64,000 bases of DNA, from NCBI RefSeq assembly GCF_002080435.1, contig NZ_CP020539.1, forward strand, positions 558,001 through 622,000, in the 5' to 3' direction. Position numbers and translations under genes: made by a program. This stretch comes from Sphingobium herbicidovorans. Lineage in GTDB: Bacteria; Pseudomonadota; Alphaproteobacteria; Sphingomonadales; Sphingomonadaceae. This document shows positions 43,009 through 63,076 of the stretch, piece after piece. Numbering within the stretch: the stretch's first letter is position 1; each line of letters starts with the position of its first letter. The notes under the pieces are model-generated. The model worked only from the letters and a program-made list of their open reading frames with translations, searched no databases and was not told the origin of the DNA.

Positions 43009-46000
43009 TCCAGGTTCATGATCTTGAGTGATTCGATGCCCCGGTCATCGACGATCTTGATCGCGACCCGGCGATGGTCCCCGGCCTCGAAGGGCAAAGA
43101 AACCGTGCCGTGGAATTGCTCCAAAAGATCCTCGTCCAATTCGGCACGGATTGTCTTTTTCAAGCGGTTCCAGCCATCTTTTGCGCCGGCCATCGGGAAG
43201 AATAATTGATGCGGCATGAGGCTGCGCCCATCATAGTCGGTATCCAGCGACCACATGGCGATTTTGGACTTGCCACCTGAAACCAGCGTGCCTTCGCGGG
43301 GATCGAAATAGTCGAAGCCATGGACCTCGACCTGCCAATTGTCGCCGACCTGCTTCAGTTCCACCTCAGGCTGGCCCATCAGCCAGAAGGACTGGTTGGA
43401 CGACCGCGCCTTCTTCAGATCCTCGGTCAACAGATCGGTATTCATCTGGGCCTTTAGCAGAGTGACGCCGGGCCAGTTGGTCTCGTCGATATCCTTCGCC
43501 GCCTCCGGGTCGAAGGTGAAGGCGCAGAAGACTACGAACTTGGGCTTAGGCACGAGGGTCTGAGCGTCTTCGATGGCGCGTTCCACCTGCTTCTGTTCAA
43601 GTGCAGCGTGTTCTGGACCGAAGCTGACGACGACCCGCTCCCCGCTATCCAAAGTGCCGGACGCGTGGAGGTGTTTGACGCCGGGGATGGCTTCGAGATC
43701 GGTGAACTTTAGCATGGCCCCGCCCTTTGCGCGGATCCCGGTACGGATCAGTTCATCGCGCCATTGCGTTTGACGCGAGGTTTCACCTGACCGTGCCACT
43801 GTGGCATCGGCTTCCTCTGGCGGTGCGGTCTCGTCCAGAGACAGCACCGTAGGCGCTGGTACGGCCTCAACCGAAAATGGGCCAGTGATACGAAGACGGC
43901 CCCTGTCTACGCTTGGCTTATCGTAAAGCGTTTCCTGCTCGGCATGATCCTTGATGGACTGATCCATCGCCTTCCGCATCGCTTGGGTGGCAGCATGGAA
44001 ACCGGTGAACGCTTGCGCGGCAGTGGCCGGCCAGCCAACCGGCCAATCAAAAGGCACTTCCCATTCTTCCAGCCGCTCGCCTGTGGTGAAGGTAATTGGT
44101 TTGCCCTTGCGATAGCCTTGCGTTGGCTTGAAGGGCACAGGGGAATTGGCCAGCAACGCTGCGTTCAGCGATTCGAGCGCCGCCGCGATGGCCGGGTGCT
44201 TATCTTCGTAGATCGTGTCGATATCAGGATTGTTAGCAATGCTTTTCAGGGTGATGTGAGGGACCGAATTGTAGACGAAGCCTCCCCTGAGCCCTTCATG
44301 CGGATAGCGGAGGGCGAAATAATCGAAGCCTGCTGTCATAAACCGCTGTTTCGCAAGCGTAACCGCGACACGACTTGTGTCGCACGTAATCCACCGACGG
44401 CCCCATTTTTCAGCGACAACGGCAGTCGTGCCCGAGCCGCATGTCGGGTCGAAAACCAGATCGCCAGGATCAGTAGTCATCAACAAGCAGCGCTCGATAA
44501 CTTTAGGAACAGTCTGAACTACATAGTCCTTATTGAAGCGGTCTTGTGTATCCGACCAAAGAGCATTGATCGCGTAAGCGGGAAAATCTGAGAGCCTCCT
44601 TTTGTAGTAGATCATCTTCTCGGATCCCATAAGGCGATTAGCCTTATCGAGGCGAGCCATGCCACTTAGGGAGGTTTTCCAGTTTCTTTGAGTCCCAATA
44701 TCGCACGTGAAGTTTTGCATTGAAAACGGAACTGAGGTAGTTGGCCGGAAACCCTGTGAGATCGCCGGGGTAAACGTCAACATGTCCGAACCACTCGGAA
44801 GGGCGGCTGGGTCCTTCAATTCAGCTTTTGTCACCCGCCTTTCAACGCCACTACTTTCGAGAACATATTCATATCTGGATGCGAACTCTGTCCCGGCAGT
44901 TTTTTGATAATATAACTGTCTATATTTGACTTTATATTTAGATTTGCAGTACCATATAACATAATCAGTTATATTTGCGAGAAGGAGGTCTGTAGCTCCG
45001 CTATTTTTTGTAAAAGAAATGGTGCCGCAGTGGTTTTCTTCGCCGAAAACTTCTCCCATAACCTCCCGGACATGATGAAGATTTTCATCGGAAATCTGCA
45101 CGAATACGCTGCCGCTCTCATGCAGCAGTTCCTTGGCCAAAAGCAGCCTGTCACGCAGATATGTCAGGTACGAGTGGATGCCGAGTTCCCACGTGTCGCG
45201 GAACGCCTTGATCATCTCTGGCTCTTGTGTGAGGTCCGCATCGGCCCCGTCCTTAACATCCCTCTTGTTGGTGAACGGCTGGAAGTTCGACCCATATTTG
45301 ATGCCGTAAGGCGGGTCGATGTAGATCATCTGCACCTTGCCAGCCATCGACTCCTTCTGGAGCAGCGAGTTCATGACCAGCAGGCTGTCGCCCGCGATCA
45401 GGCGGTTCGACCAGCCCTTTTCGTGATGGTAGAAATCTAGCGCCTGCCGCAATGGAAGGTTCTCGAACGCGGCGGCAAACAGGTCGGCCTGCCGCCAAGC
45501 CTCGCCCGCCTTTTCGCCCTTCAACCGCTTGCGCGCATTGGCAAGGATCGTCGCCGGGTCCACCCGCTCGTGGACGTGGAGCGACACGGTATCGACCGCA
45601 AAGCTGGTCCTTTCAGCCTTGCCCGCCCAGTTGAGATACGGCTCCTGGAGCCGCTTCAGTTCCACCAGCGCGTCGCGCATCGCATCGGCATCCCCAGACG
45701 CCAGCGCATCGTCGATCAACTTCTCGACTGCCCCGCGCTGGCTGTCGAACATCAGTTCTGGGTCGAGGTGAGGATCGTACTTCCAGACGGTCTTTGGCTG
45801 ATCCGGATCGTTATCCGGATGAACCATACCAACATCGGGGTTGTTCACCCGCGTTTCGGCGTGACGATAGCTCAGCACCTGCACCGGCTCGTCCGACTTG
45901 CGCACGACCTTCTTTTTATTGCCGGTCTTAGGGGCAGCAGGCAACGAAGCCTCTTGCGCGGTCAGCGAGAAGCCATCTCCGTCTCTATCGTTAATCTCGT

Positions 46001-46220
46001 CCTCCTCGACGTCGAGCCCCAGCAGAAAAACTGACCCGCCACGGCCGCGGCCTTTGCCGAGCATGCCTTCTGCGATCAGCCCGTCTCGGATGCGCTGATA
46101 GGTTTCATCACTTAGGTCAGGTACTGACTCGCGCATGGCTGCAGCCAAAGCCAAATTGCCGACTGCGGACCCATCGTCAGGGACAATGGACAATAGAAGT
46201 TCGCGAAGAGAGGCGGTCAT
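43005..46220 (-). CDS. mod: Type III DNA methyltransferase, Mod subunit (large form)
   Basis: A 1,071-residue beta-class N6-adenine methyltransferase. The catalytic box IDPPYGIKYGSNF is near residue 302 and the SAM-binding FDPTCGSGTTAVVAEKWG near 593, the beta-class order. The target-recognition region between them (about residues 395-560) is AT-rich compared with the rest of the gene. The N-terminal 80 residues look like a winged helix (LSDETYQRIRDGLIAEG), and a long C-terminal extension of about 400 residues follows. Mod fixes the sequence specificity of the complex. It is the first gene of the operon with res; 198 bp without a gene separate it from the sbcC-like gene. Confidence 0.9.
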   Translation of the reverse strand: MTASLRELLLSIVPDDGSAVGNLALAAAMRESVPDLSDETYQRIRDGLIAEGMLGKGRGRGGSVFLLGLDVEEDEINDRDGDGFSLTAQEASLPAAPKTGNKKKVVRKSDEPVQVLSYRHAETRVNNPDVGMVHPDNDPDQPKTVWKYDPHLDPELMFDSQRGAVEKLIDDALASGDADAMRDALVELKRLQEPYLNWAGKAERTSFAVDTVSLHVHERVDPATILANARKRLKGEKAGEAWRQADLFAAAFENLPLRQALDFYHHEKGWSNRLIAGDSLLVMNSLLQKESMAGKVQMIYIDPPYGIKYGSNFQPFTNKRDVKDGADADLTQEPEMIKAFRDTWELGIHSYLTYLRDRLLLAKELLHESGSVFVQISDENLHHVREVMGEVFGEENHCGTISFTKNSGATDLLLANITDYVIWYCKSKYKVKYRQLYYQKTAGTEFASRYEYVLESSGVERRVTKAELKDPAALPSGSDMLTFTPAISQGFRPTTSVPFSMQNFTCDIGTQRNWKTSLSGMARLDKANRLMGSEKMIYYKRRLSDFPAYAINALWSDTQDRFNKDYVVQTVPKVIERCLLMTTDPGDLVFDPTCGSGTTAVVAEKWGRRWITCDTSRVAVTLAKQRFMTAGFDYFALRYPHEGLRGGFVYNSVPHITLKSIANNPDIDTIYEDKHPAIAAALESLNAALLANSPVPFKPTQGYRKGKPITFTTGERLEEWEVPFDWPVGWPATAAQAFTGFHAATQAMRKAMDQSIKDHAEQETLYDKPSVDRGRLRITGPFSVEAVPAPTVLSLDETAPPEEADATVARSGETSRQTQWRDELIRTGIRAKGGAMLKFTDLEAIPGVKHLHASGTLDSGERVVVSFGPEHAALEQKQVERAIEDAQTLVPKPKFVVFCAFTFDPEAAKDIDETNWPGVTLLKAQMNTDLLTEDLKKARSSNQSFWLMGQPEVELKQVGDNWQVEVHGFDYFDPREGTLVSGGKSKIAMWSLDTDYDGRSLMPHQLFFPMAGAKDGWNRLKKTIRAELDEDLLEQFHGTVSLPFEAGDHRRVAIKIVDDRGIESLKIMNLE

Positions 46221-46418: not shown

Positions 46419-49049
46419 TCAGATCTGGACTCGCGTTGCAGCCAAATGTCGGAATGCCCGATCGCGGCAGGTGAGCAGGATCACCTGCATGCGCTGAGAC
46501 GCTTCCTCAAGAATCTCGGTCATCAGATCGAGCCGGCCGTCGTCGGAATAGACCAAGGGATCGTCGAGGATCAGCGAAACTGGTGTTCCCTGCTCCAGCA
46601 GCATGTCGGCAAAGGCGAGGCGGGTGAGGACCGCCAGCTGCTCCTGCGTCCCCTTTGAGAGCGTTCCGCAGGCTTCGCTCAGGCCGGATCGCGTGACCGA
46701 GGCCAGGCCGAGTTCTTCATCGAAGCTGAGGTCGGCGCCGGGGAAAAGGCGCTCGACATGGACGCGAGCGCGCTGGGCCACAGGGCCAACAAAGGTTCGG
46801 GATGCCTCCGCGCGCGCCTCGTCCAGCACATCCTTGAGCATTTTGACCGTGGCCGCCTCTTCGTCGAGCCGAGCCAGCGCCTGCGTTGCGGCATCGGCTT
46901 CTTCGGCTGCAGCTGCGGCCAGGCTCGCCAGACCTTTGCCACCCTCGCTCTCAATGATCGCCTCAAGGCGGGCGATATCCTTTTCGAGGTCGCTCCGCCG
47001 GGTTTGACCAGCCCTTGCCCGGCTATCGATCGTTTCGATCTTGCGGTTGATCGCCTGCACGTCATGCGCGGTGGCGTCGCGTGTCGCTTCGGCCAGTTTG
47101 ACAGCGGCCTGGGCAGCATCCTCTCGGGCCTTGGCGATGGCATCGGCAAGCCCGGCAAAATCGGGCTTCTGTTCGAGCTGAGCGATGCGATCCGATGCAT
47201 GGGTCCGATCGCGCTCCGCGCCCGCCTGCTCGGCGGCAAGCGGGCGGTCCCTATCCTCTATTTCACGCAGGTCCTGAACGGCTTGGTCGTGCAGGGTTTC
47301 AGCGCGCACCGCGGTCGTTTCCGCCTCTTCCAGGCGTCGGGTGAGCTGATCGGTCGAGATCTCGTCTTCATCAGACGCCGGCGATTCCGCTGGAACACCG
47401 GCCACGAATAGCTTGAGCGCATCCGGGCCTGCCGCGAGATCCAACAGCGGCTGCGCCGGCGTGAGGCCTGTAATCTTGGTTTCGAGCAGTTGGACGGTCC
47501 CCTGCGCGTCGCGCGAAGTACCGTTTCGCGCTCGGGCCGCAGCGAGGTCGGCCACATCCCATTCGGCTAGTTCCAGATCCTGTCGCTCGAGCAATTCAGC
47601 GAGGCGGGCTGTTGCGCTGGCTGCGGTTGCCGGCGGACGGATGACGAGGATGCCGCCACCCAGCGCAATCTGCGTCTCTCCGGTCAAGGTGCGCGGGCTA
47701 TTTGGTGTCAGGGGCTCGCCGCCTATGGTGATGCCCGTAGCGTCGCCCGTAAGCTCGATAATGGTAGCACCGGCATTGACGGCTGCCCGCGCTTCCGCGA
47801 CAGCGCGGTCATTGGCCTCCAGGCGAGCGAACGCCTCAGCCGGAATGACCTGGGCGGCCTGATTGCGGGCGTTGGTCAGTTGCTTTTCGAGATCGAGGAG
47901 CTCGGTGTGCCGCTGGCGTGCATCGGTGATTGCCGCGTGGCGCTGACGCCCAGCGAGACGTCCCTCCCCCTCCACAAGAGCCTGACGGGCCATGGTGCGA
48001 TCATCGCGCGCATTGTCGAGCGCTGCCTTTGCCTCAGCCACCTTCTTGCGTCCCGCTTCCAGCTGGTCTGCAAGCTGATCGCGATCGGCGGTGATTGCGG
48101 TCAAAGATTCCCCAGCGGCCGTCAACGCTTCCTTCGCCGCCTCATGCTGCGATTGCAGATCATCGAGACGATCGAGGTTTGCAGAGAAATTCTCATGCTC
48201 GGCCTTGCGGGTCTCCAGGATTTGCGCGGCAGCCCTGGCGATCTCGAGAGACTGAACAAGGCCGGCGCGCTGTTCTTGCTCGGTCTCGTCCGCCAGCTCC
48301 CGCTCGATCACTTTCAGTCGGCCGCGCGCGGTTTCCAGCTCGCCGAAGCTCGTTTCGAGCGCATCGAGCCGCGTGGTCGCTTCTGCAGCGGTTTGCCGCG
48401 CTTGCTGGTCACGATCCCGCGCCGCTTGCCAGCGCCCCTTCGACTGCGCCTTTCCAGTCGGCGTCCAGTAAATGTCATATTGCTCATCGATCCGCTTTCG
48501 GACGCGCTCATAGGCAGCGCCGCCGACGATCGTCCCGACCTCTGCCTCCAGCGTCGCCTGGATGCTGCTGCGCACGATGCTGCCGGGCGCCGTGACTTCG
48601 AGCGCCTGCGCCTGCGGAACCCAAAGTAGACCGAGCGCACCATAGGTGGCCGGGTCACCGCGCTGGCTGCTATCCTTGACGAACCCCAAAAGCGCCTGCA
48701 GCCGATTTTCGGCCTCCTCGCCCTGCGCCCGGCCCTGCGGCCCCGTGACTTCGACTTGGGGGCCTTTGAGAAACCGCTTGGCGATTTTCCAGCTGTCGGA
48801 GCCAATATCGAAACTGACCTCGATCTCTGGCGCGACTGCCTCGCCATAAGGCGCAAAACTTTGAGCGAGCTGATTCTTCGTGGCATGGCGGACGAAGAAA
48901 GCCGCACGCAGGGCCTCAAGGATCGTGGATTTCCCACTCTCGTTGGGCTCGATGATGATGTTGAGCCCCTCGCCCAGCCCTTCGATCGTCAGGGGCTCGC
49001 GGAACTTGCGGAAATTGTTGAGGCTGATCCGCCGCAGTTGGAGGCTCAT
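46419..49049 (-). CDS. SbcC/Rad50-like ATPase without zinc hook (YhaN-like)
   Basis: An 876-residue SMC-type ATPase. Walker A EPNESGKST is at residues 34-42. The C-terminal half-site has LSKGTQEQLAVLTRLAFA (signature) and SLILDDPLVYSDDGRLD (Walker B). Between them are long coiled coils broken by a beta-rich insert (ITIGGEPLTPNSPRTL) where canonical SbcC has a CxxC hook; no such cysteine pair is present. This layout is closer to YhaN than to SbcC. ATG 49049 follows GGGGAGCC and is preferred to a TTG at 49076. It works with the phosphoesterase encoded just upstream, probably as a DNA-end-processing complex. Confidence 0.8.
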   Translation of the reverse strand: MSLQLRRISLNNFRKFREPLTIEGLGEGLNIIIEPNESGKSTILEALRAAFFVRHATKNQLAQSFAPYGEAVAPEIEVSFDIGSDSWKIAKRFLKGPQVEVTGPQGRAQGEEAENRLQALLGFVKDSSQRGDPATYGALGLLWVPQAQALEVTAPGSIVRSSIQATLEAEVGTIVGGAAYERVRKRIDEQYDIYWTPTGKAQSKGRWQAARDRDQQARQTAAEATTRLDALETSFGELETARGRLKVIERELADETEQEQRAGLVQSLEIARAAAQILETRKAEHENFSANLDRLDDLQSQHEAAKEALTAAGESLTAITADRDQLADQLEAGRKKVAEAKAALDNARDDRTMARQALVEGEGRLAGRQRHAAITDARQRHTELLDLEKQLTNARNQAAQVIPAEAFARLEANDRAVAEARAAVNAGATIIELTGDATGITIGGEPLTPNSPRTLTGETQIALGGGILVIRPPATAASATARLAELLERQDLELAEWDVADLAAARARNGTSRDAQGTVQLLETKITGLTPAQPLLDLAAGPDALKLFVAGVPAESPASDEDEISTDQLTRRLEEAETTAVRAETLHDQAVQDLREIEDRDRPLAAEQAGAERDRTHASDRIAQLEQKPDFAGLADAIAKAREDAAQAAVKLAEATRDATAHDVQAINRKIETIDSRARAGQTRRSDLEKDIARLEAIIESEGGKGLASLAAAAAEEADAATQALARLDEEAATVKMLKDVLDEARAEASRTFVGPVAQRARVHVERLFPGADLSFDEELGLASVTRSGLSEACGTLSKGTQEQLAVLTRLAFADMLLEQGTPVSLILDDPLVYSDDGRLDLMTEILEEASQRMQVILLTCRDRAFRHLAATRVQI

Positions 49050-50154
49050 GCTTGGCTCCCCGATGATATTCGACAAAGAGCCGCTCCATCGCGCGCCGCG
49101 CCAATATGGCTTCAGTCCCGCCGGCAGCGATCGTTTCGGTAAGCTTCTCAGCCGCTATGCCAAGCAATCCCTCTACCTTGAGATCCGCCAAGTCCTGCTC
49201 GCCCGGCCGGCCGAACAGATGGTCCGCCCGGACATCCAGGAAACGGAGGCGATGCCGGAGGTCATCTTCGAGCCGCGACAGGATCTCGACGCGGTCGGCA
49301 AGGCTCGTGATGCCTGCAAGCGAAAGGCGCAGCAGCGTTGCCGCAGGATCGATAGCCGAGAGCAGCACGTCGCATTCCGCCAAAAAGGCGGCCGTGTCCT
49401 GCAAGGTCCAATCCCTGAGCAGCCATTGGAAGCGGCCGGTGCGCACGGGTTCCACCTTTGGCTCCACTCCGGGCGCAAGCTCGATCATCAGGGCATGGCC
49501 CGGCTCATCGCGCTGAAAACCGTCGGTTTCGGGGGTGCCGGCATACCAGGTGCGCGGCTCGACCTTGAGCGTGCCATGCCAATCACCGAGCGCCAGATAG
49601 TCGAGATTGGACCGCTTCGCGCGATCGGGAGCGATCTGGTTCCTGGTCTCGCCGCGCGCCGTGAAATCGCGGATGGAGCCATGAGCAAGGCCGATACGCA
49701 GCTTCGCGCCTGGCGTTTCCATGCTGTCGAACAGCTCGGTCGGATCGTCGAGATGGTGACGATGGAGGAGCGGTGCGGGTAGCAGCCAGAGCCCTGCTTC
49801 CATCTCCCGCGCGACGGGCTCGGTGAGCAGGATGATATTGTCCGAGGCTTTGTGACGGACGCGGTCCCACAGTCCGCCGTTGCGGGCATAGTCGTGATTG
49901 CCCGGGAGCAGCCACCAGCGGCAGGGATAGCGCTGCATGCGCGAGACTGCCTGGACGATGACCCTATCTTCGGGACCCTCGGTATCGAAGATGTCGCCTG
50001 CGACAATCACATGTTCCACCTGGTTGGCGGCCGCGACTTCGCCGATCCGGTCGATGGCGTCGAAGCGCGCTTCGCCAAGCGCCGCGCGCACCTCGGGCTC
50101 GAACCGGCCAAAGGGTTTGCCGAGCTGCCAGTCAGCGGTGTGGAGGAAACGCAT
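48916..50154 (-). CDS. SbcD/Mre11-like exonuclease (YhaO-like)
   Basis: A 412-residue calcineurin-like phosphoesterase. Metal-binding boxes in order are LHTADWQLGKPF, VIVAGDIFDTE, LLPGNHDYARN, GLAHGSIRDF and LALGDWHGT. The first box has Gln where Mre11 has His, which I have seen in related exonucleases. The last 44 codons run into the sbcC-like gene in another frame, a 134-bp overlap. A one-base shift near 49050 would instead end the protein in a normal ATGA overlap. The gene starts 3 bp after the RecB/helicase stop, so all three are one operon. Confidence 0.8.
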   Translation of the reverse strand: MRFLHTADWQLGKPFGRFEPEVRAALGEARFDAIDRIGEVAAANQVEHVIVAGDIFDTEGPEDRVIVQAVSRMQRYPCRWWLLPGNHDYARNGGLWDRVRHKASDNIILLTEPVAREMEAGLWLLPAPLLHRHHLDDPTELFDSMETPGAKLRIGLAHGSIRDFTARGETRNQIAPDRAKRSNLDYLALGDWHGTLKVEPRTWYAGTPETDGFQRDEPGHALMIELAPGVEPKVEPVRTGRFQWLLRDWTLQDTAAFLAECDVLLSAIDPAATLLRLSLAGITSLADRVEILSRLEDDLRHRLRFLDVRADHLFGRPGEQDLADLKVEGLLGIAAEKLTETIAAGGTEAILARRAMERLFVEYHRGAKHEPPTAADQPQQFPQVPRAPDDRRAGRGAQHHHRAQREWEIHDP

Positions 50155-50157
50155 GGA

Positions 50158-53100
50158 TCAAGATCCCGTATTGTGAGGCGCAGAAAGCGGCGAAAGCGCA
50201 CAGAGCGTGTTGACGAGCCGCATCTGCTCGATGCTGCTGCAGTTGGCCTCGCGCAAGCGGTCGCTGCCAAATACGAGCGCGAGCGCTTTGGCGCGTGAAA
50301 CCGCGACATTGATGCGGTTGAGCGAGAAGAGAAACTCCATGCCGCGGGCGGTCTCGTCGGCCGAGGAAGCCGTCATGGAGACCAGGCATATAGGGGCTTC
50401 CTGGCCCTGGAACTTGTCGACCGTGCCGACGCGAATGCTGCTCGGCAGCCCTGCCCGCAGCGCGTTGACCTGTGCATTATAGGGGGCGACGACGATGATG
50501 TCGCCGGGGCCGATAGGGCGCGTGGCGCCGTTCTTATCGGTCCAGCTCCCTTGCAGGAGATTCTCGATTGCCGCGCCGATCGCCGCAACTTCCTCAGCGG
50601 CGATCTGGGCATTACCATCATGAGCAACCGAAACCCAATATGCGCCGGCCGTGGGCCAGGCTGTTCCGGTAACGCTCTGGCGCTCGGTATCGCTATGGCT
50701 GGCTAGTCGCCCCTCATAGACCTGGTCTGAAATGAAGTCACAAACCGCGGGATGCATCCGCCGAGTCTCGGCAAGGAAGATGCCTCGATCGGCAGGCACC
50801 GTGGCATGCTCGCCCAGCATCCATTTCAGGCATGACAGGTTGGCGGGCGCAGGATGCGCGCCTTGGATGACCTGAGGCAGCTGGCGCGGATCGCCGACCA
50901 GCACGATATTGCGCGCGGCACGCCCCATGGCGACCATGTTGGCGAGGCCCACTTGCCCCGCCTCATCGACAAACAACCAATCGAAGCACTGCACATTCTC
51001 ATCGCGCGCGAAGAAGAAGGCCGTGCCGCCGACCACATTGGCGTGGGCGAGGATCAGGTCATCATTGGCCGTGGCGCGGTGAACGGGACAATCGCTGGCA
51101 TAGCCATCATCGCCGCCCGAGACCTTGTGGGCGAACGACACGAGAAAGGTTCCACCCTCTTCCTCGCGAGCCCGCAGGCAGCCAAGCAGGACATTGCGGA
51201 TCGCTTCATGGCTGTTCGAGGCGACGGCGACCCGATGTCCCGCTCCGACCAGCGCCAGGATCACCCGGGCCGTGACATGCGTTTTGCCCGTGCCTGGCGG
51301 TCCCTGGATCGGGAGCAATGTCTGGTCCATGGCTTGCGCAGCGGCAATGGCGCCGGCCACCGGTTCTCCGTCACCGAGAATGTCGCCGGCTATGCCATTG
51401 AGGCGCGGGGCGGCGCCCGACAGCAGATCATCGATGGCGCGATAGCGCCGCGGCCCGCACTGGTCCTCGATGACGTCGCGCACCGCTGCGGCCAACACCT
51501 TGGTATCGAGCGGCCAATCCGGATGCAGGGTCAGCCGATCGGTGAGGAGTTCGGCCCGTGTCACGCCGACCTTCAGGGTGATAGTGCACGCTTCGCGATC
51601 CAGCGCCTCAATCGCGACGGTTGACGGCGGTCCCTCGATCCCGGGCACAGTGGCCTTGCCGCCCTCGCGCAATTTGGTTTCCTGAGACGGAAAGCGATAG
51701 GTGCGCATCACCGAACGCTTGATGGGTTCGATCCCGGATATCGCCTCGAGGCCCGCCAAGGCGTCGAGATCGTCCACAAGATCTTCCTCATCGCGCCCCG
51801 CGCTGTCGAAAACCGTCCATTGAGCAGGCTTGGCTTCACGCTTGTGGAACAGCCCCAGGTTGAACAGCAGTTCCTGACGCTCTGGGACCAAAGTGGACGT
51901 GGCTAGGCGATCGCGCAGCGCGGTCGTTTCCTCGTCCTCGACCGCCTCCTGCTCGGCCGCGTCCTGCGCAAGCACGGGCCAGAATCGATCGGGCCGGATG
52001 CCGACCAGCCAATCGCGCAGAAGCTCGGTCGATTGGCAGTCGATCCGGTTATAGTCCTCGATCTCGTCGAGGATTTGCTGATCGCCCGTCTCGCGCCAAT
52101 TTTCATAAGCAACGACCGATCCGCCCGCTGTCTTGACCTCCCCCTCGCGCTTCAAGCCATAAAAGGCTTCCAGCGCCTTGATGGAGTAGCTCGGTTCGGA
52201 AGCAATGAGCGCGCCGCGCACGACCGCATAGAGGTCAACAAAGCGCCGTTCGCGCATGAGTCGGTCGAGAAAGGCCTCGCCGATACCATAGCGTGTGGTG
52301 AGACGCCGCAGCGCGGTGATCTCATAGGGCGCATAATGATAGATGCGGGCCTCCGGATAAGCCGTGAGGCGATCACGAAAAAACGCAAGCAGCTGTTCGA
52401 GCGCTTGCGCTTCGGCGGCATGGTCATGAGCCCAGAAGGCATGGAAACTATCATCGACCCACACGCCGTGCAGATATTCAAGGCCTCCCTCATAATGGGG
52501 ATCGCCCTCGATGTCGTAGAAGAGATCGCCCGCCTGCGGCCGAGGGAGCAGGTCAAAGCCTTTGCCTGGCTGTGCCGGACGCAACTCGAAGGCGGGTTCG
52601 CCGGTTTTGCGCGCGTGCTGCAGTCTGGCCTGGCCGACAAGCTTCTCCGCCGTCGCACTCGCAATGCCGCGCACCGGGCCGTCATGCCGAGCCAGCGCGG
52701 CCATGGTTTCGATACCCGACGCCTCGAGCTTCTTCACTTGGCCGCGGGTGATATTGGCGACCTGGAACAGGCTGTCCTGGCTGGTGAGGATAGCGTCGCA
52801 ATGATCGGCCCAACGACACAGCGAACAATCCGCGCAAGGGATCGGCCGCGTCGGCACAGGGGAAGCGACAAATGCCTCGAGCTTCGCCCGCGCACCGCGT
52901 GCATAGTGGGCATAGTCGGCCAAGCGCAGCGTCGCGCGCGTCCCATCGCCTAGCTGCACATGTGCGTGCACCGGCATCACGCCCTGGATCTCCGCCAAAA
53001 GGTCGGAATAGAGCACGAGCTGCAGCACATGCTTGGGATGGGCTTTGCGCTTGAGCTTGGTGTCGGTCACTTCGTAGCTGAATGGCCCCAGCAACGAGGG

Positions 53101-53457
53101 GCGCTCGACCCGCTCGAGAAAATCGGACCAGCCACCCCACCGCTCAGCCAGAAAAGCCCCTTGGAAGATGATCTGCGAGCCTTTCGCCAGGGCAGCTCGC
53201 GTCTCGTCCGCATTCTGAGCAAGGTCGCCACGCGCGATCTCGACTACGCCATGGCCCGCGTCCTTCAGCGTCGCCAAATGGGCGGCCTCATGGGCATCAC
53301 CCTGTTTCTGAAGCAGCGCGGCATCCTCGGTATCTTCCCGGGGCGTGAGCGGCTCGCCGCGCATATAGGCAAGGTCGAGCACCGTCGCATGCGCGCAGCC
53401 AACGAACCGCATCAGGTCCGTCGCTGAAAACAGGATGGTGTTCCCGATCGTCCTCAC
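50158..53457 (-). CDS. RecB-like nuclease / exonuclease / SF1 helicase fusion (TM0106 family type)
   Basis: A protein of about 1,099 residues. An N-terminal RecB-like nuclease region (LFSATDLMRFVGCAHAT) ends in a four-cysteine cluster CADCSLCRWADHC near 214. An RNase H-like exonuclease box (LFYDIEGDPHYEGGL) lies near 315 with IDCQSTELLRDWL later. The SF1 helicase has IQGPPGTGKTHVTARVI near 721, LFVDEAGQVGLANMV near 832 and VGTVDKFQGQEAP. GTG 53457 begins the conserved VRTIGNTILFSATDL; an upstream start at 53529 is possible but would leave only 32 bp to the divergent WYL gene. It heads the operon with the YhaO- and YhaN-like genes. Confidence 0.82.
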   Translation of the reverse strand: MRTIGNTILFSATDLMRFVGCAHATVLDLAYMRGEPLTPREDTEDAALLQKQGDAHEAAHLATLKDAGHGVVEIARGDLAQNADETRAALAKGSQIIFQGAFLAERWGGWSDFLERVERPSLLGPFSYEVTDTKLKRKAHPKHVLQLVLYSDLLAEIQGVMPVHAHVQLGDGTRATLRLADYAHYARGARAKLEAFVASPVPTRPIPCADCSLCRWADHCDAILTSQDSLFQVANITRGQVKKLEASGIETMAALARHDGPVRGIASATAEKLVGQARLQHARKTGEPAFELRPAQPGKGFDLLPRPQAGDLFYDIEGDPHYEGGLEYLHGVWVDDSFHAFWAHDHAAEAQALEQLLAFFRDRLTAYPEARIYHYAPYEITALRRLTTRYGIGEAFLDRLMRERRFVDLYAVVRGALIASEPSYSIKALEAFYGLKREGEVKTAGGSVVAYENWRETGDQQILDEIEDYNRIDCQSTELLRDWLVGIRPDRFWPVLAQDAAEQEAVEDEETTALRDRLATSTLVPERQELLFNLGLFHKREAKPAQWTVFDSAGRDEEDLVDDLDALAGLEAISGIEPIKRSVMRTYRFPSQETKLREGGKATVPGIEGPPSTVAIEALDREACTITLKVGVTRAELLTDRLTLHPDWPLDTKVLAAAVRDVIEDQCGPRRYRAIDDLLSGAAPRLNGIAGDILGDGEPVAGAIAAAQAMDQTLLPIQGPPGTGKTHVTARVILALVGAGHRVAVASNSHEAIRNVLLGCLRAREEEGGTFLVSFAHKVSGGDDGYASDCPVHRATANDDLILAHANVVGGTAFFFARDENVQCFDWLFVDEAGQVGLANMVAMGRAARNIVLVGDPRQLPQVIQGAHPAPANLSCLKWMLGEHATVPADRGIFLAETRRMHPAVCDFISDQVYEGRLASHSDTERQSVTGTAWPTAGAYWVSVAHDGNAQIAAEEVAAIGAAIENLLQGSWTDKNGATRPIGPGDIIVVAPYNAQVNALRAGLPSSIRVGTVDKFQGQEAPICLVSMTASSADETARGMEFLFSLNRINVAVSRAKALALVFGSDRLREANCSSIEQMRLVNTLCALSPLSAPHNTGS

Positions 53458-53512
53458 TTGGCCCCCTTGATTGCCCAACGCCGCCCACGAGGGAATCACC
53501 TCGACAGGCGCT

Positions 53513-53551
53513 ACCCTGTTCCTTAGCATGCAAGGGTGTCAATCTCTGACA
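53513..53551. promoter_or_regulatory. Candidate WYL operator between divergent genes
   Basis: The 104-bp divergent gap holds two dyads. CCTTAGCATGCAAGG (53521-53535) is a near-perfect palindrome. TGTCA-ATCTC-TGACA (53537-53551) is an inverted repeat, and on the minus strand it contains TTGACA, a good -35 box for the nuclease-helicase operon. ACCCT and AGGGT (53513-53517, 53533-53537) also pair. A dimeric regulator bound here would cover that promoter. Confidence 0.5.
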
Positions 53552-53561
53552 TGGACGTATA

Positions 53562-54545
53562 ATGACTTTCGCCAAGGCCAACGATCTTCTGCGCCTCGCC
53601 CAGCTCGCCGCCTCGCGGCGTTTGGGAATCAGTCTTGAGGAAATCTCTCAGGAATTCGGCATTTCGCACCGCACAGCGCAGCGCATGACAAGCGCGCTGG
53701 AGGATAATTTCGCGAATGTCGTTGTCGTAGAAGATGACGATCGCCGCCGGCGCTGGCGCATCCAAAGTCCCATCCCCGAGCGACTGCAACCGCGCCAGGA
53801 AAACACCATCGAGGCTTTGGAAATCGCCGCCCGCGCGGCCCGCGATGAGAACCGGCTCCGCCATGCCCGCGCCCTGGAAGATCTCAGAGACAGCCTGATC
53901 ACGCGCCTCTCGCCGCGAGATGCGCTGCGCTCCGAAGCCGATGCGGAGGCGGTGCTATCGGCTTTGGGCCAAGTGGCGCGGCCAGGTCCAAAGGTCGCGA
54001 TGAAGCCGGAGGTCACCGATGTTCTGATCGAGGCGCTGCGCGGACCGTTCAAGATGCGCATTGTCTATGGCGAGACCGACGCGGAAACCCGAACGGTCGA
54101 GCCGCATGGGCTCCTACTGGGATTGCGCAGCTATCTCGTGGCGCGCCAGGCTGACCGAGGTGAAAATCTCCGCCATTTTCGTCTCGATCGCATTCACAGC
54201 GCCGAATGTCTTGATGAGAGTTTTCCCATCCAATCCGGGTTTTCCTTGAACGATCATGCGGCGCAGGCCTTCGGCGCTTATCAGGACCCCGCCCAATATG
54301 GCGAGATCGTCTGGCGGTTTCTTCCCGAGGCAGCCTCGCGTGCGGCGGAATTCCAGTTCCACCCCAACCAGTCGGCCGAATATCGGGACGACGGCAGTCT
54401 GATTGTCCGGTTTAAAGCCGCAGGCTGGCTGGAAATGGCCTGGCATCTCTATCAATGGGGCGACAAGGTCGAGGTGCTGGAACCGGCGGGGTTGCGGGCG
54501 CTGGTCGAAGGCCACGCGCGTCCCGACTTCCCGGCCCTGCCCTGA
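53562..54545 (+). CDS. WYL-domain transcriptional regulator
   Basis: The 327-residue protein has an N-terminal winged helix (residues 1-70: ISLEEISQEFGISHRTAQRM), a central WYL domain (about 145-235, including RSYLVARQADRGENLRHFRL) and a C-terminal WCX-like domain. WYL repressors such as BrxR and CapW control defence operons and sense nucleic-acid signals. It diverges from the RecB/helicase operon and converges with a DUF3883 gene, placing it centrally in the candidate system. Dyads in the promoter region support autoregulation. A TATAAT overlaps the start codon and is probably coincidental. Confidence 0.88.
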   Translation: MTFAKANDLLRLAQLAASRRLGISLEEISQEFGISHRTAQRMTSALEDNFANVVVVEDDDRRRRWRIQSPIPERLQPRQENTIEALEIAARAARDENRLRHARALEDLRDSLITRLSPRDALRSEADAEAVLSALGQVARPGPKVAMKPEVTDVLIEALRGPFKMRIVYGETDAETRTVEPHGLLLGLRSYLVARQADRGENLRHFRLDRIHSAECLDESFPIQSGFSLNDHAAQAFGAYQDPAQYGEIVWRFLPEAASRAAEFQFHPNQSAEYRDDGSLIVRFKAAGWLEMAWHLYQWGDKVEVLEPAGLRALVEGHARPDFPALP

Positions 54546-54581
54546 TTGACCGATTTGTATCGCCCTTCGTGGCGGCGGTTT

Positions 54582-55415
54582 TCAATTGAGCTCGGCGAGG
54601 AAGCTGGTCGCCGTCAATTGTGCGTGATCGCTCAGGGGCGAGCGCAGCGTGAAGGCGCTTGGCGCACGGGCGAAATTCCACAGCCGCATGAGGCACCATT
54701 CCTCGCGCCTCGTATCGGCGACGGCCAGCTCATTGCGAGAGATATGAAAAGGCGTGCGCTCCCATCCGTTGGTGGTCTTGACCTCGATCAGCTTCTCGCG
54801 CCCGTCCGCCTCAAAGCTCCGGATATCGAAGCCAAAACCATCGCCATCCTGCACAGATGTCCAGCGGACTTTGTCCGCGAGATCGTCGCGGCCCGCGGCA
54901 GATAAATGACGGCGCTCGTGATGCAGCACACATTCTTCACCCGCCTTGCCAAGCGCCCGGTTGCGCGCGTCGCGCTCGGCGACATCATATTTGCGGCCGA
55001 TCGCGGCCATGAACGCTGGATCGATCGGCGACGGTTCGTTGCGCACCGTGGGCGGCGGCCCGATCCGCAGTGATCCTTGCGCTTCCGGTACGTTCAGGGC
55101 AGCTCGTGAGAGCCTGTCGGGAGCCAGCCATTCGGTCCGCGCCTCCAACCACCGCAGGACGCCATCGACCAGCGCATTCTGGAAATTGGCGGCCGGCTTA
55201 TAGCCCTCGATCCAAGGCTGACCAAGGCCGAGCAAGACCGCGCTGATGTTCTGATGCTTGAACTCGATTGAGCCCTTGCTACGGTCGATCACGGCTTGAA
55301 GATCGCGGTTTCGCGCCGCTTTATTGAAGGAGCGACCAACCAGCTCGTCGGTGAGCATGGCGAAATAGTCGGCGACGATGTGATCAATTTCCTGATCGGA
55401 CCAGACTTCCGCCAC
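54582..55415 (-). CDS. DUF3883 protein, PD-(D/E)xK nuclease-like
   Basis: A 277-residue protein with a DUF3883 domain in its C-terminal half. The likely nuclease-like core is GFGFDIRSFEADG followed by KLIEVKTTNGWERTPFHIS, giving D, E-x-K and a conserved HIS-x-NE-type region. The N-terminal 130 residues include SIEFKHQNISAVLLGLG and YKPAANFQNALVDG, a pattern seen with HTH-nuclease proteins of defence islands. The start lies 3 bp after the HEPN gene stop, so both form one transcript. Whether the nuclease is active cannot be judged here. Confidence 0.75.
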   Translation of the reverse strand: MAEVWSDQEIDHIVADYFAMLTDELVGRSFNKAARNRDLQAVIDRSKGSIEFKHQNISAVLLGLGQPWIEGYKPAANFQNALVDGVLRWLEARTEWLAPDRLSRAALNVPEAQGSLRIGPPPTVRNEPSPIDPAFMAAIGRKYDVAERDARNRALGKAGEECVLHHERRHLSAAGRDDLADKVRWTSVQDGDGFGFDIRSFEADGREKLIEVKTTNGWERTPFHISRNELAVADTRREEWCLMRLWNFARAPSAFTLRSPLSDHAQLTATSFLAELN

Positions 55416-55418
55416 GCC

Positions 55419-56111
55419 CTACTCCACCACCGGGTAGTTCGGCATCGGCCATTCATGCCCGGCATTGTCCATCATGAGATCGATGAAGATCGGCAGCAAG
55501 CAGCCGAGCAGCGCGGCGCCATCCCTGACCTGGGCGCGATTGACATCGCTGTTCCATGTCGAGCCACCATGCACCAGTTGGTTGCGCAGCACATAAAGCC
55601 GGTCGAACAGGATCGAGAGTATCCTGGCCGTGTCATGATCGCGCAGTGCGGCGCCTATCGCTGTCCGCGACCGCTCGAGCCTGTCAGCCCAGTCGGCATA
55701 GCCGGACGCACCATTGTGATGCTGCCAAAAGGGATGGAAGACATAGCGGTTTGCGAGCAGCACCCGGATTTCCTGAGGGAAGCGCTGCCAGACCATGTCG
55801 TAGATGCGATGTTTGCCATCAAAGCCCACAAGGGTTGCGAAAAAGGCCTGGAACAATCCCCGCTCACCCTCGGGGATACCAATCACCCGCGATGCTTCAA
55901 CGTCGCCGGCATAGGCAGCGTTGAAGCCGATCCAGAGCAGGATGAAACGTACATCCTCATCGGCCTGCTCGGCCTCGGCACGGCGCAGCCACGACAGCGC
56001 GCGATGCACCCTGAGCGTCAGCGGCTCCGGAAAATCGCCACGCAGCTCGCGCTGCTTGGCCTTCAAGTTCTCATGGTGCAGCGGGCTGCCGGGCGGATAG
56101 CGATAGGCCAT
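55419..56111 (-). CDS. HEPN-domain protein, likely RNase
   Basis: The 230-residue helical protein carries RNQLVH at residues 176-181, a textbook HEPN RNase motif (R-N-x3-H), in LYVLRNQLVHGGSTW. An upstream segment (DVRFILLWIGFNAAYAG) and the final helix (LLGCLLPIFIDLMMDN) complete a HEPN-like bundle. Similar Apea-like HEPN proteins accompany defence genes and often act as abortive-infection effectors. It is the first gene of a two-gene operon with the DUF3883 protein and lies just past the end of the type IV secretion operon. Confidence 0.75.
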   Translation of the reverse strand: MAYRYPPGSPLHHENLKAKQRELRGDFPEPLTLRVHRALSWLRRAEAEQADEDVRFILLWIGFNAAYAGDVEASRVIGIPEGERGLFQAFFATLVGFDGKHRIYDMVWQRFPQEIRVLLANRYVFHPFWQHHNGASGYADWADRLERSRTAIGAALRDHDTARILSILFDRLYVLRNQLVHGGSTWNSDVNRAQVRDGAALLGCLLPIFIDLMMDNAGHEWPMPNYPVVE

Positions 56112-56156
56112 GACCGATATGGTAAAGCCTTGCTGGTCAGGCTCAATCCCTCTCGA

Positions 56157-57020
56157 TCAACGGCCTCGAGATCGTTGCAGCGGCGCTCGTTCCTTGCCGG
56201 GTTCCCGCCGGTTCCGGCCTGACGGCTCAACGGCCCGGACCGAGGTGTCCCGCACCTTTGCTGCCTGAAACTGCCAGCCCGCCTGCAAATGCGTTTGCAC
56301 CTTGTCGTTTGCCACCTTCATCACCCTGGCAACGGCATCGGGATCGTCGAATAATGCCGCGCGCACCACTGTCTCGATCACGCGAAGCTGGCTCTGGGCC
56401 GCCCGCGCATTCTTCTCCCGGCTTTGTTCGGACGGTGTTTGTCTAGACGACTCATCGGGCTGGCGTCGATTCCGCCCAGGTTCGCGCGACGCCGGCGCCG
56501 TGACGGCAGGGGCAATGCTGTTGCGACTAGCATCGCGCCGGACTCGGTCCAGCTCCTGCAAATCCCGTTCGCTCGGCCGATATCCCCGCACCTCCAAACC
56601 TTGGCGACTGGCTTCGAGCCAAGCCGCCCTTCGGAACGTCTCACTGCCGGTAACATGGACGTGCGACCACCCGCGATGGCGAGCGATGGCAACGAGATCG
56701 CGCACAACCTCGTCGCTCTCGCTGGAGGTGATGAGCCGTCTGCCCTGGTCGCGGAACGCCGGTTCCTTTGCCTGTGCCGTCGTGAAATATGCGGGCTCGC
56801 CCGACCATTTGCTCGTCGCGGAGAAATAGCGCTTTCGCAAGGCATCGGGAATGTCACCGGGCGACGCCGCTTGAAGGACGGACGGATCAAACGACTTCCC
56901 CATCTTGGCTGGTTCGAGCGACGGTTGCGCCGCATTCCTCGGCCTGACTCCCGCGTCCTGCCCTATCGTATTGCTACGCTTGCCCGTACCACGTGGCGTC
57001 AGAGGTTTTTCAGCGGCCAT
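56157..57020 (-). CDS. LPD7-domain protein of the transfer operon
   Basis: The 287-residue protein contains an LPD7 domain at about residues 60-155 (KRYFSATSKWSGEPAYF, ITSSESDEVVRDLVAIARHR, WSHVHVTGSETFRRAAWLEA). LPD7 is usually found at the ends of relaxases and other large conjugation proteins. The flanks are disordered and rich in Arg, Ser and Pro. Its start overlaps virD4 by 11 bp, so it is the last gene of the transfer operon. A detached LPD7 protein might support the relaxase, which has no such domain here. Confidence 0.75.
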   Translation of the reverse strand: MAAEKPLTPRGTGKRSNTIGQDAGVRPRNAAQPSLEPAKMGKSFDPSVLQAASPGDIPDALRKRYFSATSKWSGEPAYFTTAQAKEPAFRDQGRRLITSSESDEVVRDLVAIARHRGWSHVHVTGSETFRRAAWLEASRQGLEVRGYRPSERDLQELDRVRRDASRNSIAPAVTAPASREPGRNRRQPDESSRQTPSEQSREKNARAAQSQLRVIETVVRAALFDDPDAVARVMKVANDKVQTHLQAGWQFQAAKVRDTSVRAVEPSGRNRREPGKERAPLQRSRGR

Positions 57021-58971
57021 GATCTGCCCTTTCCTGGATGAGGGGTGAAGACGACGCCCCTTCCGTCTGCACGAGCGCCCGCTCGATCATCGATGACACG
57101 AAAGCGATAGCGGCTGCCTCATCGCCGGGCGGCGGTAAGTCGGTCAGGTCGCCTAGGACCAGCATGTCATCGGTAATCTCGGCCGCGCCCGCCAGTTCAC
57201 CCTCGGTCATTTCCCGCATCTTGGTCTCCTCCAGCAAGGCCCCGCCCGTGCTCTTCGCCGTTGGCCCCTTCGCGACATTGTAAGGGGGCACCATCTGATG
57301 CTTGCCAGGCGGCAGAACAGTTGGGGATGGTGCAGCGGGGATAGGCCGCGACGGCAGAATGGGCGGCGACAAAACGCGCCGTGTGAAGCGCGGCATTCGA
57401 TAAAAGGCGATCTTCCTGCCACGAACCGGCGCGATGCCGCCGCGCAGCAACAAGAGCTCGGTCTTGGACATTTGCATCAGCTCCTGCGGCAGCAGGAGGG
57501 CGCGGCGCTGATCGGATTCCGATACGCTGCGATTGGCCAGCAGCCCATGAATCGTTCGGCTGCGCGATTTCACATTCATCGTGAAGAAGCCGAGCCGCTC
57601 CGAAAGCTCGTTCGCGACCTTCAGCTCCTTGGGCGTAAACACCACCTCAAGGCCGCAATTGGCGATGATTTCGTCGGTAACATCGGGACCATAAATGGCC
57701 CGCAGTTGCGCCCGGCTCTGGATCACCGGCAGCAAGCGCAAGCCGTATCCGGCGACATAGGAAAAGCCGCCCGCGATGACCGAGGCCTTCCCGAGCCTTG
57801 CGAATTCATCGAGCAAGATCAGAACAGGGACATTGCTGGAAGCATCGGGCAAATCGCGCGTGTTGAGATCCACCAGCTGCTGCAGGAAGAGGCTATAAAC
57901 TGGTGCGATCCGGTCGATATTGTCGGGCGAAACACCGAGATAGATCGACATGCGCCGCGCCCGGACTTCGCGCAGATCGAAATCGCTTGCCGATGTCGCC
58001 GCATCGACGACGGGGTTGAGCCAGAGATTGAGGCGCGCAGTGATCGTCTGCTTAATCCCGGAAAAGGTGTTGTCCGAAGCCGAGGCGAAATCCTGGATTG
58101 CCGAGACGCATGCCTGACTTAGGCGCTGTCCCGTCCCCCTCGCCTCTTCCAGGGCCTTGGGAAGATCGCTCTTGGGATCCCCAGACGTGAGCCGTCGATA
58201 GATCTCACCGATCGTGAAGGGCATGCCAGGATTGGCAGCAACGAGCGCGCCGACGCCGATGAAGGCCGCCCGCGCCGCCTCGGCCCAGAAGGGGTCCGAT
58301 CGTTCCGGCGCTGGGAAGAGCATGACCGCGATTTTCTGAAGCTCGTTGACGACTTCGGTGTCATCGGCTCGCCGGATATGGGCCAGGGGATTGTACCGTG
58401 CCGTCCGCCCTTCAGGGTCTAACGGATCGAAGAGGAAAACCGATTGGCCGGCACGTTGGCGATAACCGGCGCTGATACTCCAATTCTCCCGCTTCACATC
58501 AAGCACGACGACCGAATCCGGCCAGGTTAGCAGATTGGGGATGACAACACCGACGCCCTTCCCGGCGCGCGTCGGCGCTTCGAGCAAGACATGCTCGTTC
58601 CCGCCGAAAATGAGGAAGCGTCCTGCTTTGCGTCCAACGACAATGCCAGATGGCGCGCGCAGCCCCTCGCGTCGAATTTCGCCCTCGCGCGCAAACCGCG
58701 CCCTGCCATGCAAGGCTGGGCCTTGCCGCAGCATCGTGAGGACAAGAAGCGCGACTACGGCGGCGCCAGCCATCGCTCCCCGCCTGATCCAGTCAGCGAG
58801 CAGCGGATCGCCGCGATAATACCAGAGCCAGGCCGGCAGAGTGCCGAGATCGATATTAGGTCCGATCTGCCCGAGTGCGAACAGGGCAACGAACAGGGTG
58901 ATGACAGCCCACAGCAGAATTGCGCCGATCACGCACAGGCCAATCGCCCAGGGACTACGCTGCGCCAGCAT
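57010..58971 (-). CDS. virD4: VirD4/TraG-type coupling protein
   Basis: The 653-residue protein is the type IV coupling ATPase. Two or three N-terminal membrane spans (WAIGLCVIGAILLWAVITLF, then AGAAVVALLVLTML) precede the cytoplasmic domain. Walker A is LEAPTRAGKGVGVVIPN near residue 135 and Walker B VLILLDEFARLGK near 385. It recruits the relaxase-DNA complex to the channel. ATG 58971 overlaps the virB11 end by 17 bp and begins at the membrane segment; an earlier in-frame start at 59040 would lie inside virB11. The C-terminal 120 residues are proline-rich and acidic. Confidence 0.93.
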   Translation of the reverse strand: MLAQRSPWAIGLCVIGAILLWAVITLFVALFALGQIGPNIDLGTLPAWLWYYRGDPLLADWIRRGAMAGAAVVALLVLTMLRQGPALHGRARFAREGEIRREGLRAPSGIVVGRKAGRFLIFGGNEHVLLEAPTRAGKGVGVVIPNLLTWPDSVVVLDVKRENWSISAGYRQRAGQSVFLFDPLDPEGRTARYNPLAHIRRADDTEVVNELQKIAVMLFPAPERSDPFWAEAARAAFIGVGALVAANPGMPFTIGEIYRRLTSGDPKSDLPKALEEARGTGQRLSQACVSAIQDFASASDNTFSGIKQTITARLNLWLNPVVDAATSASDFDLREVRARRMSIYLGVSPDNIDRIAPVYSLFLQQLVDLNTRDLPDASSNVPVLILLDEFARLGKASVIAGGFSYVAGYGLRLLPVIQSRAQLRAIYGPDVTDEIIANCGLEVVFTPKELKVANELSERLGFFTMNVKSRSRTIHGLLANRSVSESDQRRALLLPQELMQMSKTELLLLRGGIAPVRGRKIAFYRMPRFTRRVLSPPILPSRPIPAAPSPTVLPPGKHQMVPPYNVAKGPTAKSTGGALLEETKMREMTEGELAGAAEITDDMLVLGDLTDLPPPGDEAAAIAFVSSMIERALVQTEGASSSPLIQERADHGR

Positions 58972-59959: not shown

Positions 59960-59962
59960 GGC

Positions 59963-61186: not shown

Positions 61187-61189
61187 GGT

Positions 61190-63064: not shown

Positions 63065-63076
63065 GGTGATGTCTCA

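Follow-up and report, generated by a model that had tools for sequence, protein, structure and literature searches.

The window analysed here is a stretch of 64,000 nucleotides of Sphingobium herbicidovorans, covering positions 558001-622000 of contig NZ_CP020539.1 in a genome of five contigs. It contains six clustered genes that look, from their sequences and surroundings, like one instance of an apparently undescribed, modular anti-phage or anti-plasmid system: genes for a YhaN-like ATPase, a YhaO-like phosphoesterase, a fusion of a RecB-like nuclease with a superfamily 1 helicase (RecB-SF1), a WYL regulator, a DUF3883 protein and a HEPN protein. The element resembles a plasmid; the right part of the window carries conjugation genes, and a megablast comparison found the block 46425-63500 to be common to conjugative plasmids. 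All six genes proposed in a preliminary description of the locus are present, and profile matches place all but the HEPN protein in their families.

46419-49046, minus strand: YhaN, an SbcC/Rad50-like ATPase (SMC_N, AAA_23)
48916-50154, minus strand: YhaO, an SbcD/Mre11-like phosphoesterase (Metallophos, SbcD-like)
50158-53457, minus strand: RecB-SF1, with the start given in related annotations; its open frame runs from 53529
53537-53551, between WYL and RecB-SF1: dyad TGTCA-GAGAT-TGACA, proposed WYL operator
53562-54545, plus strand: WYL-WCX transcription regulator of 327 amino acids (WYL and WCX matches)
54582-55415, minus strand: NOV/DUF3883 protein of 277 amino acids (DUF3883/NOV_C, E=1e-20)
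55419-56111, minus strand: HEPN protein of 230 amino acids, with RNQLVH (R-x4-H) at residues 176-181

RecB-SF1 consists of a TM0106-type nuclease, an RNase-H-fold domain and a Dna2/UPF1-like helicase. It matches TIGR03491 (TM0106 RecB-like nuclease) with E=3e-80 and 270 bits against a cut-off of 97, and also RNase_H_2 and AAA_11/AAA_12; its helicase part is similar to SMUBP-2, DNA2 and UPF1. From inspection of the translations by eye, we take the Walker A and B motifs to be kept in YhaN and RecB-SF1, and the metallophosphoesterase motifs in YhaO. The 3-bp gap between RecB-SF1 and yhaO had been described correctly and recurs in the annotation of relatives, and the 104-bp gap between WYL and RecB-SF1 holds with a RecB-SF1 start at 53457, as in related records. 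The reported overlap of yhaO with yhaN is present too, at 131 bp in the window compared with 4 bp in related records. The final codons of yhaO (48916-49046) lie in a different frame from that of four relatives and add 43 amino acids overlapping yhaN, which could be a sequencing or a natural variant.

The HEPN protein matched no Pfam family at E<=0.001. We nevertheless assign it to HEPN because an R-x4-H motif is conserved, HEPN_RiboL-PSP is weakly matched, the predicted structure is confident and all-helical, and related records name the protein 'HEPN domain-containing protein'. The motif, reported as intact in the preliminary description, is kept in 53 of 55 aligned rows, the window included; in the other two (L093 and L094; L and G numbers denote loci or elements and surveyed genomes) the gene lies near a contig end and homology is lost before or in the motif. 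Among 40 members, 21 matched HEPN_RiboL-PSP weakly (E<=1, best E 0.005), one HEPN_MAE_28990 and one HEPN_Apea. In its DUF3883 neighbor, residues D197, E211 and K213 (a D...ExK motif) are invariant in 39 rows, so that the C-terminal part is likely a PD-(D/E)XK nuclease; the N-terminus is possibly homeodomain-like. DUF3883 relatives also occur in many enterobacterial plasmid records; in three that we opened the match is split into two or three pieces and lies next to resistance genes.

To place the six genes in a wider context, we examined 80 loci, the best RecB-SF1 matches among 564 confirmed in reference genomes. A WYL gene lay within 900 bp upstream of RecB-SF1 in 41 loci, elsewhere in nine and nowhere in 23, with seven undecidable. 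HEPN homologs, 30 in number and found by single-sequence phmmer at E<1e-60, lay upstream of RecB-SF1 at up to 2.6 kb in 25 loci and elsewhere in five; 36 loci lacked one and 14 were undecidable. Where WYL and HEPN were both present, HEPN stood directly behind WYL, on the same strand and divergent from RecB-SF1, in 20 of 27 loci, at a spacing of at most 157 bp between open frames. The loci, on plasmids and chromosomes, belong mostly to Alphaproteobacteria, the group of the query itself. The arrangement of two operons with WYL between them, as the preliminary description had it, is that of the window's own lineage, and differs from the common one.

Because the 80 loci were picked by RecB-SF1 similarity, we surveyed genomes chosen independently of the presence of either gene. 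Among 397 Sphingomonadaceae genomes, HEPN (E<=1e-20) was found in 19 and RecB-SF1 (E<=1e-100) in 26, with both in 10 against 1.24 expected, an excess of about eightfold (hypergeometric 1.4e-8, or 1.2e-7 with nine shared when our own genome is excluded; relatedness is not corrected for). The two genes share a contig in nine of these 10 genomes, at distances of about 1.1 kb (n=3), 1.9 kb (the window), 6.6-7.1 kb (n=3), 13.8 kb and 22.7 kb. Seven of the 10 are firm pairs, all within 7.1 kb. As far as sequence comparison can tell, an association of WYL, RecB-SF1 and HEPN above chance is well supported, as is the recurrence of these three as a core.

The gap between WYL and RecB-SF1 was said to contain dyads, and a repeat finder recovered two inverted repeats in it, both imperfect (76% and 82%). 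The better supported of these, TGTCA-GAGAT-TGACA, recurs across loci: a relaxed form, YGWCA-N5-TGWC, is present in 29 of 39 WYL/RecB-SF1 intergenic regions, close relatives included, whereas 200 shuffled sets averaged 0.6 and never exceeded 3, and spacers other than 5 gave 0-3 matches. The loci that bear it span sphingomonads, rhodobacters and rhizobia. Over their full length (1.46 Mb) the 80 loci contain 39 sites of a longer dyad pattern, of which 24 lie within 400 bp of a RecB-SF1 frame start, seven more at 403-565 bp before it and the remaining eight elsewhere. The regulator itself matches WYL and WCX, with HTH_23 under its cut-off, and matches CRISPR-associated WYL models of PADLOC at 75-89 bits. 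WYL is the presumed binding protein of the dyad, and the positions of promoters are likewise putative.

YhaO/YhaN is one of several exchangeable modules behind RecB-SF1. Directly behind RecB-SF1 the 80 loci carry McrB in 23 cases, a Tiamat-like TmtA in 11 and YhaO in six, with McrB/McrC and three TmtA representatives assigned from Pfam and PADLOC matches. In 19 of 24 loci the McrB open frame starts within RecB-SF1 or 4 bp behind it, an upper bound given stop-to-stop frames. On a RecB-SF1 tree of 88 rows (labels McrB, TmtA, YhaO/N or none; a quick method, with some long branches), the module label changed at least 17 times compared with 33 in shuffles, and well-supported branches force 10 changes for McrB, six for TmtA and three for YhaO/N. 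L019, with TmtA, and L022, with McrB, are clade mates on end branches of about 0.02; the clade is tight, and all its members other than L019 carry McrB.

Within the window's own plasmid family, exchange occurs at a fixed junction. In seven opened plasmids of backbone rep_cluster_647 with RecB-SF1, the order conjugation genes-LPD7-HEPN-DUF3883-WYL|RecB-SF1-YhaO-YhaN is constant, one of them with an insertion sequence (IS) in WYL. We saw the exact six-gene set in a single lineage only, in 10 of its 12 sphingomonad elements when the window is counted; in one of these ten an IS interrupts WYL. The preliminary description had allowed that the two gene sets might rarely occur together outside this element; that is so for the complete set and not for the core, which recurs more widely. 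In L003, L004, L113, L114, L117 and L118, homology to the window ends at 46419-46436, within 18 bp of the yhaN stop. Past this point lie a DruE-like helicase (L003, L004), a large DEAD helicase with a second helicase, an N6-methylase and HNH (L113, L117), a second WYL, DUF4391 and a methyltransferase among IS elements (L114), or type I BREX genes (BrxA, BrxB and BrxC by Pfam) preceded by a second WYL gene (L118). The window instead continues on the same strand into Mod, Res (40213-46220) and a 1937-residue SF1 nuclease, a continuation missed in the preliminary description; L056, L112, L115 and L116 have the same Mod/Res behind yhaN.

46419-46436: exchange junction at the yhaN end, where homology ends for 6 of 11 related elements
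43005-46220, minus strand: cargo, type III-like Mod methyltransferase
40213-43008, minus strand: cargo, BPTD_3080-family restriction endonuclease (Res)
34276-40089, minus strand: cargo, SF1 helicase of 1937 amino acids with MTES_1575 nuclease and DUF3320
27218-27232, minus strand: second dyad copy, CGACAGAATTTGTCA, upstream of McrBC
23766-27002, minus strand: distant McrB, 79% identical to L022 McrB, of the family directly behind RecB-SF1 elsewhere
22447-23766, minus strand: distant McrC, 83% identical to L022 McrC

Mod and Res are adjacent, as in type III restriction-modification (R-M), and the pair is cargo outside the core. A stretch of Mod, 44526-45054, has no megablast match in L056, L115 and L116 while both flanks match; its target-recognition part may have been exchanged. 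Beside the cargo, at 31978-33625, lie an AbiEii-type toxin gene and a partner frame without assignment. At the other end, the HEPN gene starts 45 bp past the LPD7 gene (56111-56157), which itself follows the conjugation genes; this start too had been overlooked, and at such spacing co-transcription of HEPN-DUF3883 with the conjugation genes is possible.

The solitary McrBC operon (22447-27232) lies about 23 kb off with the same dyad upstream, and is possibly the remnant of a second copy of the system. YGWCA-N5-TGWCA has three matches in the window against 0.54 expected (as many in 2 of 100 shuffles): 53537-53551 matches on both strands, and the only other match is 27218-27232. DNA near that site is similar to RecB-SF1 promoters, with scores of 47 for L093, 45 for L022 and 44 for L019; this likeness is suggestive at most, because shuffled best-of-39 controls (mean 33) reach a maximum of 48. 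The related plasmids L128 and L129 have such a site before their McrBC operons too, despite an exchanged N-terminal part of McrB. In these operons (L128 6399-10863, L129 6333-10920) McrB homology to the window holds from 25318 on, and a small gene precedes McrB, with DUF4268 in L128.

HEPN relatives also stand beside other partners. The same family adjoins AddAB-like nuclease/helicase pairs in L106-L109, L131 and L140, with fragments in L110, and an SbcCD-like pair in L104. WYL matches are present in the AddAB-like loci L106, L107, L109, L131 and L140, and in L108 the WYL gene precedes BREX genes. HEPN with AddAB-like genes, often with WYL (L106-L110, L131, L140), is perhaps a sister system. 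In L132 a UvrD helicase stands on one side of HEPN, with DUF3883 and a Cas4-like/DUF2779 protein on the other; a string of HEPN, DUF3883 and a protein of some 494 residues recurs (L132, L135, L142, L143), the last of the three being DUF2779/Cas4-like where scanned (L132, L142) and accompanied in L142 by an AAA ATPase. No partner was recognised near HEPN in L086-L092 and L111. A TIR protein can stand in or near the place of HEPN: at 7857-8642 of L047 it stands in the HEPN position behind WYL with a dyad between the two, and at 13846-14607 of L040 and L042 it lies behind RecB-SF1. In the linked cases a predicted suicide-type effector adjoins putative DNA-end processing enzymes.

Two elements amount to natural knock-outs, through an IS1380 element in WYL (L116) and a large deletion that runs from inside WYL to inside the SF1 nuclease (L102). 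HEPN is tolerated without RecB-SF1, YhaO and YhaN in L102 and with a broken WYL in L116, which, if HEPN is expressed there, fits control by activation rather than by an antidote. Since HEPN is kept where WYL is truncated (L102) or interrupted (L116), WYL would be no essential brake.

Taking these results together, we narrowly favor reading the six genes as a single example of a modular defence system whose core is WYL, a Dna2-like RecB-SF1 and HEPN. Its likely role is a WYL-controlled defence in which DNA-end processing licenses the HEPN RNase, and it is probably a multi-gene, abortive system. The coupling of end processing to HEPN under a linked WYL, as originally suggested, is upheld as a linkage; YhaO/YhaN and DUF3883, which had been counted with it, are not core, and DUF3883 is an optional part. 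Bound to the TGWCA-N5-TGWCA dyad in the gap that separates its gene from RecB-SF1, WYL would hold expression low until released by a ligand made during infection, such as a nucleotide or a fragment of nucleic acid. Foreign DNA would be broken or stalled by the restriction module, YhaO/YhaN would open and hold the ends, and RecB-SF1 would unwind and degrade DNA from them. Where ends persist, the engaged ATPase/helicase complex may license RNA cleavage by HEPN, stopping the cell, and the DUF3883 nuclease could act as a second, DNA-cutting effector. Behind the YhaO/YhaN module, this plasmid family carries exchangeable restriction-type cargo.

Several observations weigh against this reading. The 80 loci are a biased sample, selected as best matches to the window's RecB-SF1. 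HEPN is missing in 36 of 66 decidable loci and WYL in 23 of 73. Behind RecB-SF1, 28 of 68 decidable loci have none of the named modules, with 12 more undecidable; the YhaO/N label is not clearly clustered on the tree (three changes, as low in 34 of 500 shuffles), and L032, in which YhaO/YhaN precede RecB-SF1 and McrB follows HEPN, was scored as McrB. Among Sphingomonadaceae, nine genomes have HEPN and no RecB-SF1, no partner was recognised near HEPN in G503, G509, G557, G609 and G750, and RecB-SF1 has an internal stop or is in two pieces in G456, G666, G695 and G711. The pair is 22.7 kb apart in G573; G711, with 13.8 kb between the two, and G751, with the genes on two contigs, have an SbcCD-like or AddAB-like pair next to HEPN instead. 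Among 385 genomes sampled across the class the overlap was small, with HEPN in nine, RecB-SF1 in nine and both in three including our own, the other two being G159, where they are adjacent, and G060, where they lie on two contigs; a family-wide search of 12 genomes around G159 found both genes in G159 alone. The dyad is absent from 10 of the 39 WYL/RecB-SF1 regions and shows no genome-wide enrichment (forward 7 and reverse 4, control 6 and 4), the HEPN model found no match in a fold comparison, and L102 retains HEPN and DUF3883 after losing RecB-SF1, YhaO and YhaN.

The locus might instead be a plain defence island, in which independent systems pile up at a hotspot beside conjugation genes and HEPN, DUF3883, RecB-SF1/YhaO/YhaN and Mod/Res do no more than occupy the same site. 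The window has further defence-type genes (AbiEii, McrBC and the 1937-residue SF1 nuclease), many RecB-SF1 loci have no HEPN or WYL, the L004 block consists of WYL-RecB-YhaO-YhaN without HEPN and DUF3883, and DUF3883 matches occur in 1205 plasmid records compared with 24 for HEPN. Independent accumulation sits poorly, however, with the 20 loci in which HEPN follows WYL on one strand by no more than 157 bp, with the roughly eightfold co-occurrence in Sphingomonadaceae, with a dyad conserved in 29 of 39 loci across three bacterial groups, and with the tight spacing of RecB-SF1, YhaO and YhaN (a 3-bp gap and a 4-bp annotated overlap) and of McrB frames behind RecB-SF1 (19 of 24, an upper bound); we regard an island as unlikely, if the most serious of the rival accounts.

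A narrower account would make HEPN-DUF3883 a plasmid toxin-type or addiction module, driven with the conjugation operon and functionally unrelated to RecB-SF1/YhaO/YhaN. HEPN starts 45 bp past LPD7, where the run of conjugation genes ends, survives alone of the core in L102, and in L132 and L135 occurs with DUF3883 and no RecB-SF1 within the fetched stretch. Against this stand the 20 loci with HEPN directly behind WYL on its strand and the two of 12 elements (L102, L116) that keep HEPN with WYL truncated or interrupted; no antitoxin partner was recognised, and no dedicated antitoxin search was made. We consider this account quite improbable. About as improbable is that RecB-SF1/YhaO/YhaN serve plasmid DNA repair or establishment through end resection in conjugation, with WYL a damage regulator and phage defence incidental. 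Mre11/Rad50-like and Dna2-like enzymes form the classic end-resection set, the helicase is similar to SMUBP-2, DNA2 and UPF1, and the locus adjoins conjugation genes. Mycobacteria have a WYL regulator of genotoxic stress (PMC10693628). The replacement of YhaO/YhaN by McrBC or Tiamat-like proteins in relatives, and the restriction/BREX-type or helicase sets behind yhaN in related plasmids, speak against this account.

A more far-reaching version of the modular defence system, which we put forward tentatively and hold to be doubtful on balance, is a recombinational immune chassis: a constant core of WYL, Dna2-like RecB-SF1 and HEPN (or TIR) under one WYL operator code, into which non-self detectors are plugged. 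The detectors would be McrBC, Tiamat-like proteins or YhaO/YhaN, followed by type III R-M, BREX or DruE-like sets, and the operator code might also bring the distant McrBC operon under common control. Such a core would answer the DNA damage done by whichever module is plugged in with a single, common RNase response. If the modular reading is true, a single regulated core ties diverse restriction systems to a common abortive response, which would help to explain the recurrence of WYL, HEPN and helicase-nucleases near unrelated restriction modules. The TGWCA-N5-TGWCA dyad together with the RecB-SF1/HEPN pair would then be a handle for finding such systems, and the locus a natural test of whether Mre11/Rad50-like or Dna2-like end processing can activate a separate RNase.

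The absence of a named counterpart, claimed at the outset, is borne out: gene-level scans of the six proteins against PADLOC-DB 2.0 gave no system-wide match, and no description of the system was found in the open-access literature, where the term TM0106 appears in just two papers, both unrelated, and neither the CoCoNuT nor the YprA paper mentions RecB, TM0106 or YhaO. PADLOC matches of YhaN, YhaO and RecB-SF1 were partial, and HEPN had none. The DUF3883 protein matched candidate PDC-S36 over its full length (E=2e-119), going by its code a single-gene candidate; here it is an optional HEPN partner. In RloC and PrrC the HEPN active site has the spacing R-x4-6-H, into which RNQLVH falls. There, ATPase and nuclease share one polypeptide, whereas the window has separate genes (46419-49046 and 55419-56111), and adds a RecB-SF1 helicase-nuclease, an Mre11-like subunit and WYL; across the loci the ATPase is optional. 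PrrC/RloC are the closest precedent for the proposed mechanism: PMC3710099 describes their HEPN nuclease as governed by an SbcC/Rad50-like ATPase, and PrrC as situated among restriction genes.

Lamassu (LmuA/B) also joins a Rad50-like ATPase to an effector. The best LmuB match of YhaN reaches 33 bits over residues 598-860, far from full length, no LmuA is among the matches listed for the six proteins (for YhaN, the best 25 of 31 families), and the window has an Mre11-like partner and a helicase-nuclease besides. In BREX, the WYL regulator BrxR accompanies a defence operon whose operator is an inverted repeat, and the window shows the BrxR/CapW-type layout of a helix-turn-helix, WYL and WCX protein beside candidate targets with a conserved dyad between them (HTH_23 below cut-off). 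Type I BREX genes occupy the cargo slot of L118, with a second WYL of their own; unlike BrxR, the window-type WYL is tied to RecB-SF1 and remains when cargo is exchanged. Tiamat (TmtA) is a single-gene system, whereas here TmtA-like proteins, in the module position of 11 of 80 loci (three scanned, PADLOC TmtA up to 1561 bits), are one option behind RecB-SF1. The likeness to McrBC and CoCoNuTs is that McrBC of this family often follows RecB-SF1 immediately, in the vicinity of HEPN. CoCoNuT types II and III couple McrB with a UPF1-like SF1 helicase (PMC11090510); the text of that paper has the term HEPN but names no RecB, TM0106, YhaO or YhaN, and WYL in a reference only. In the loci described here, by contrast, RecB-SF1 is the constant element and McrBC the variable one.

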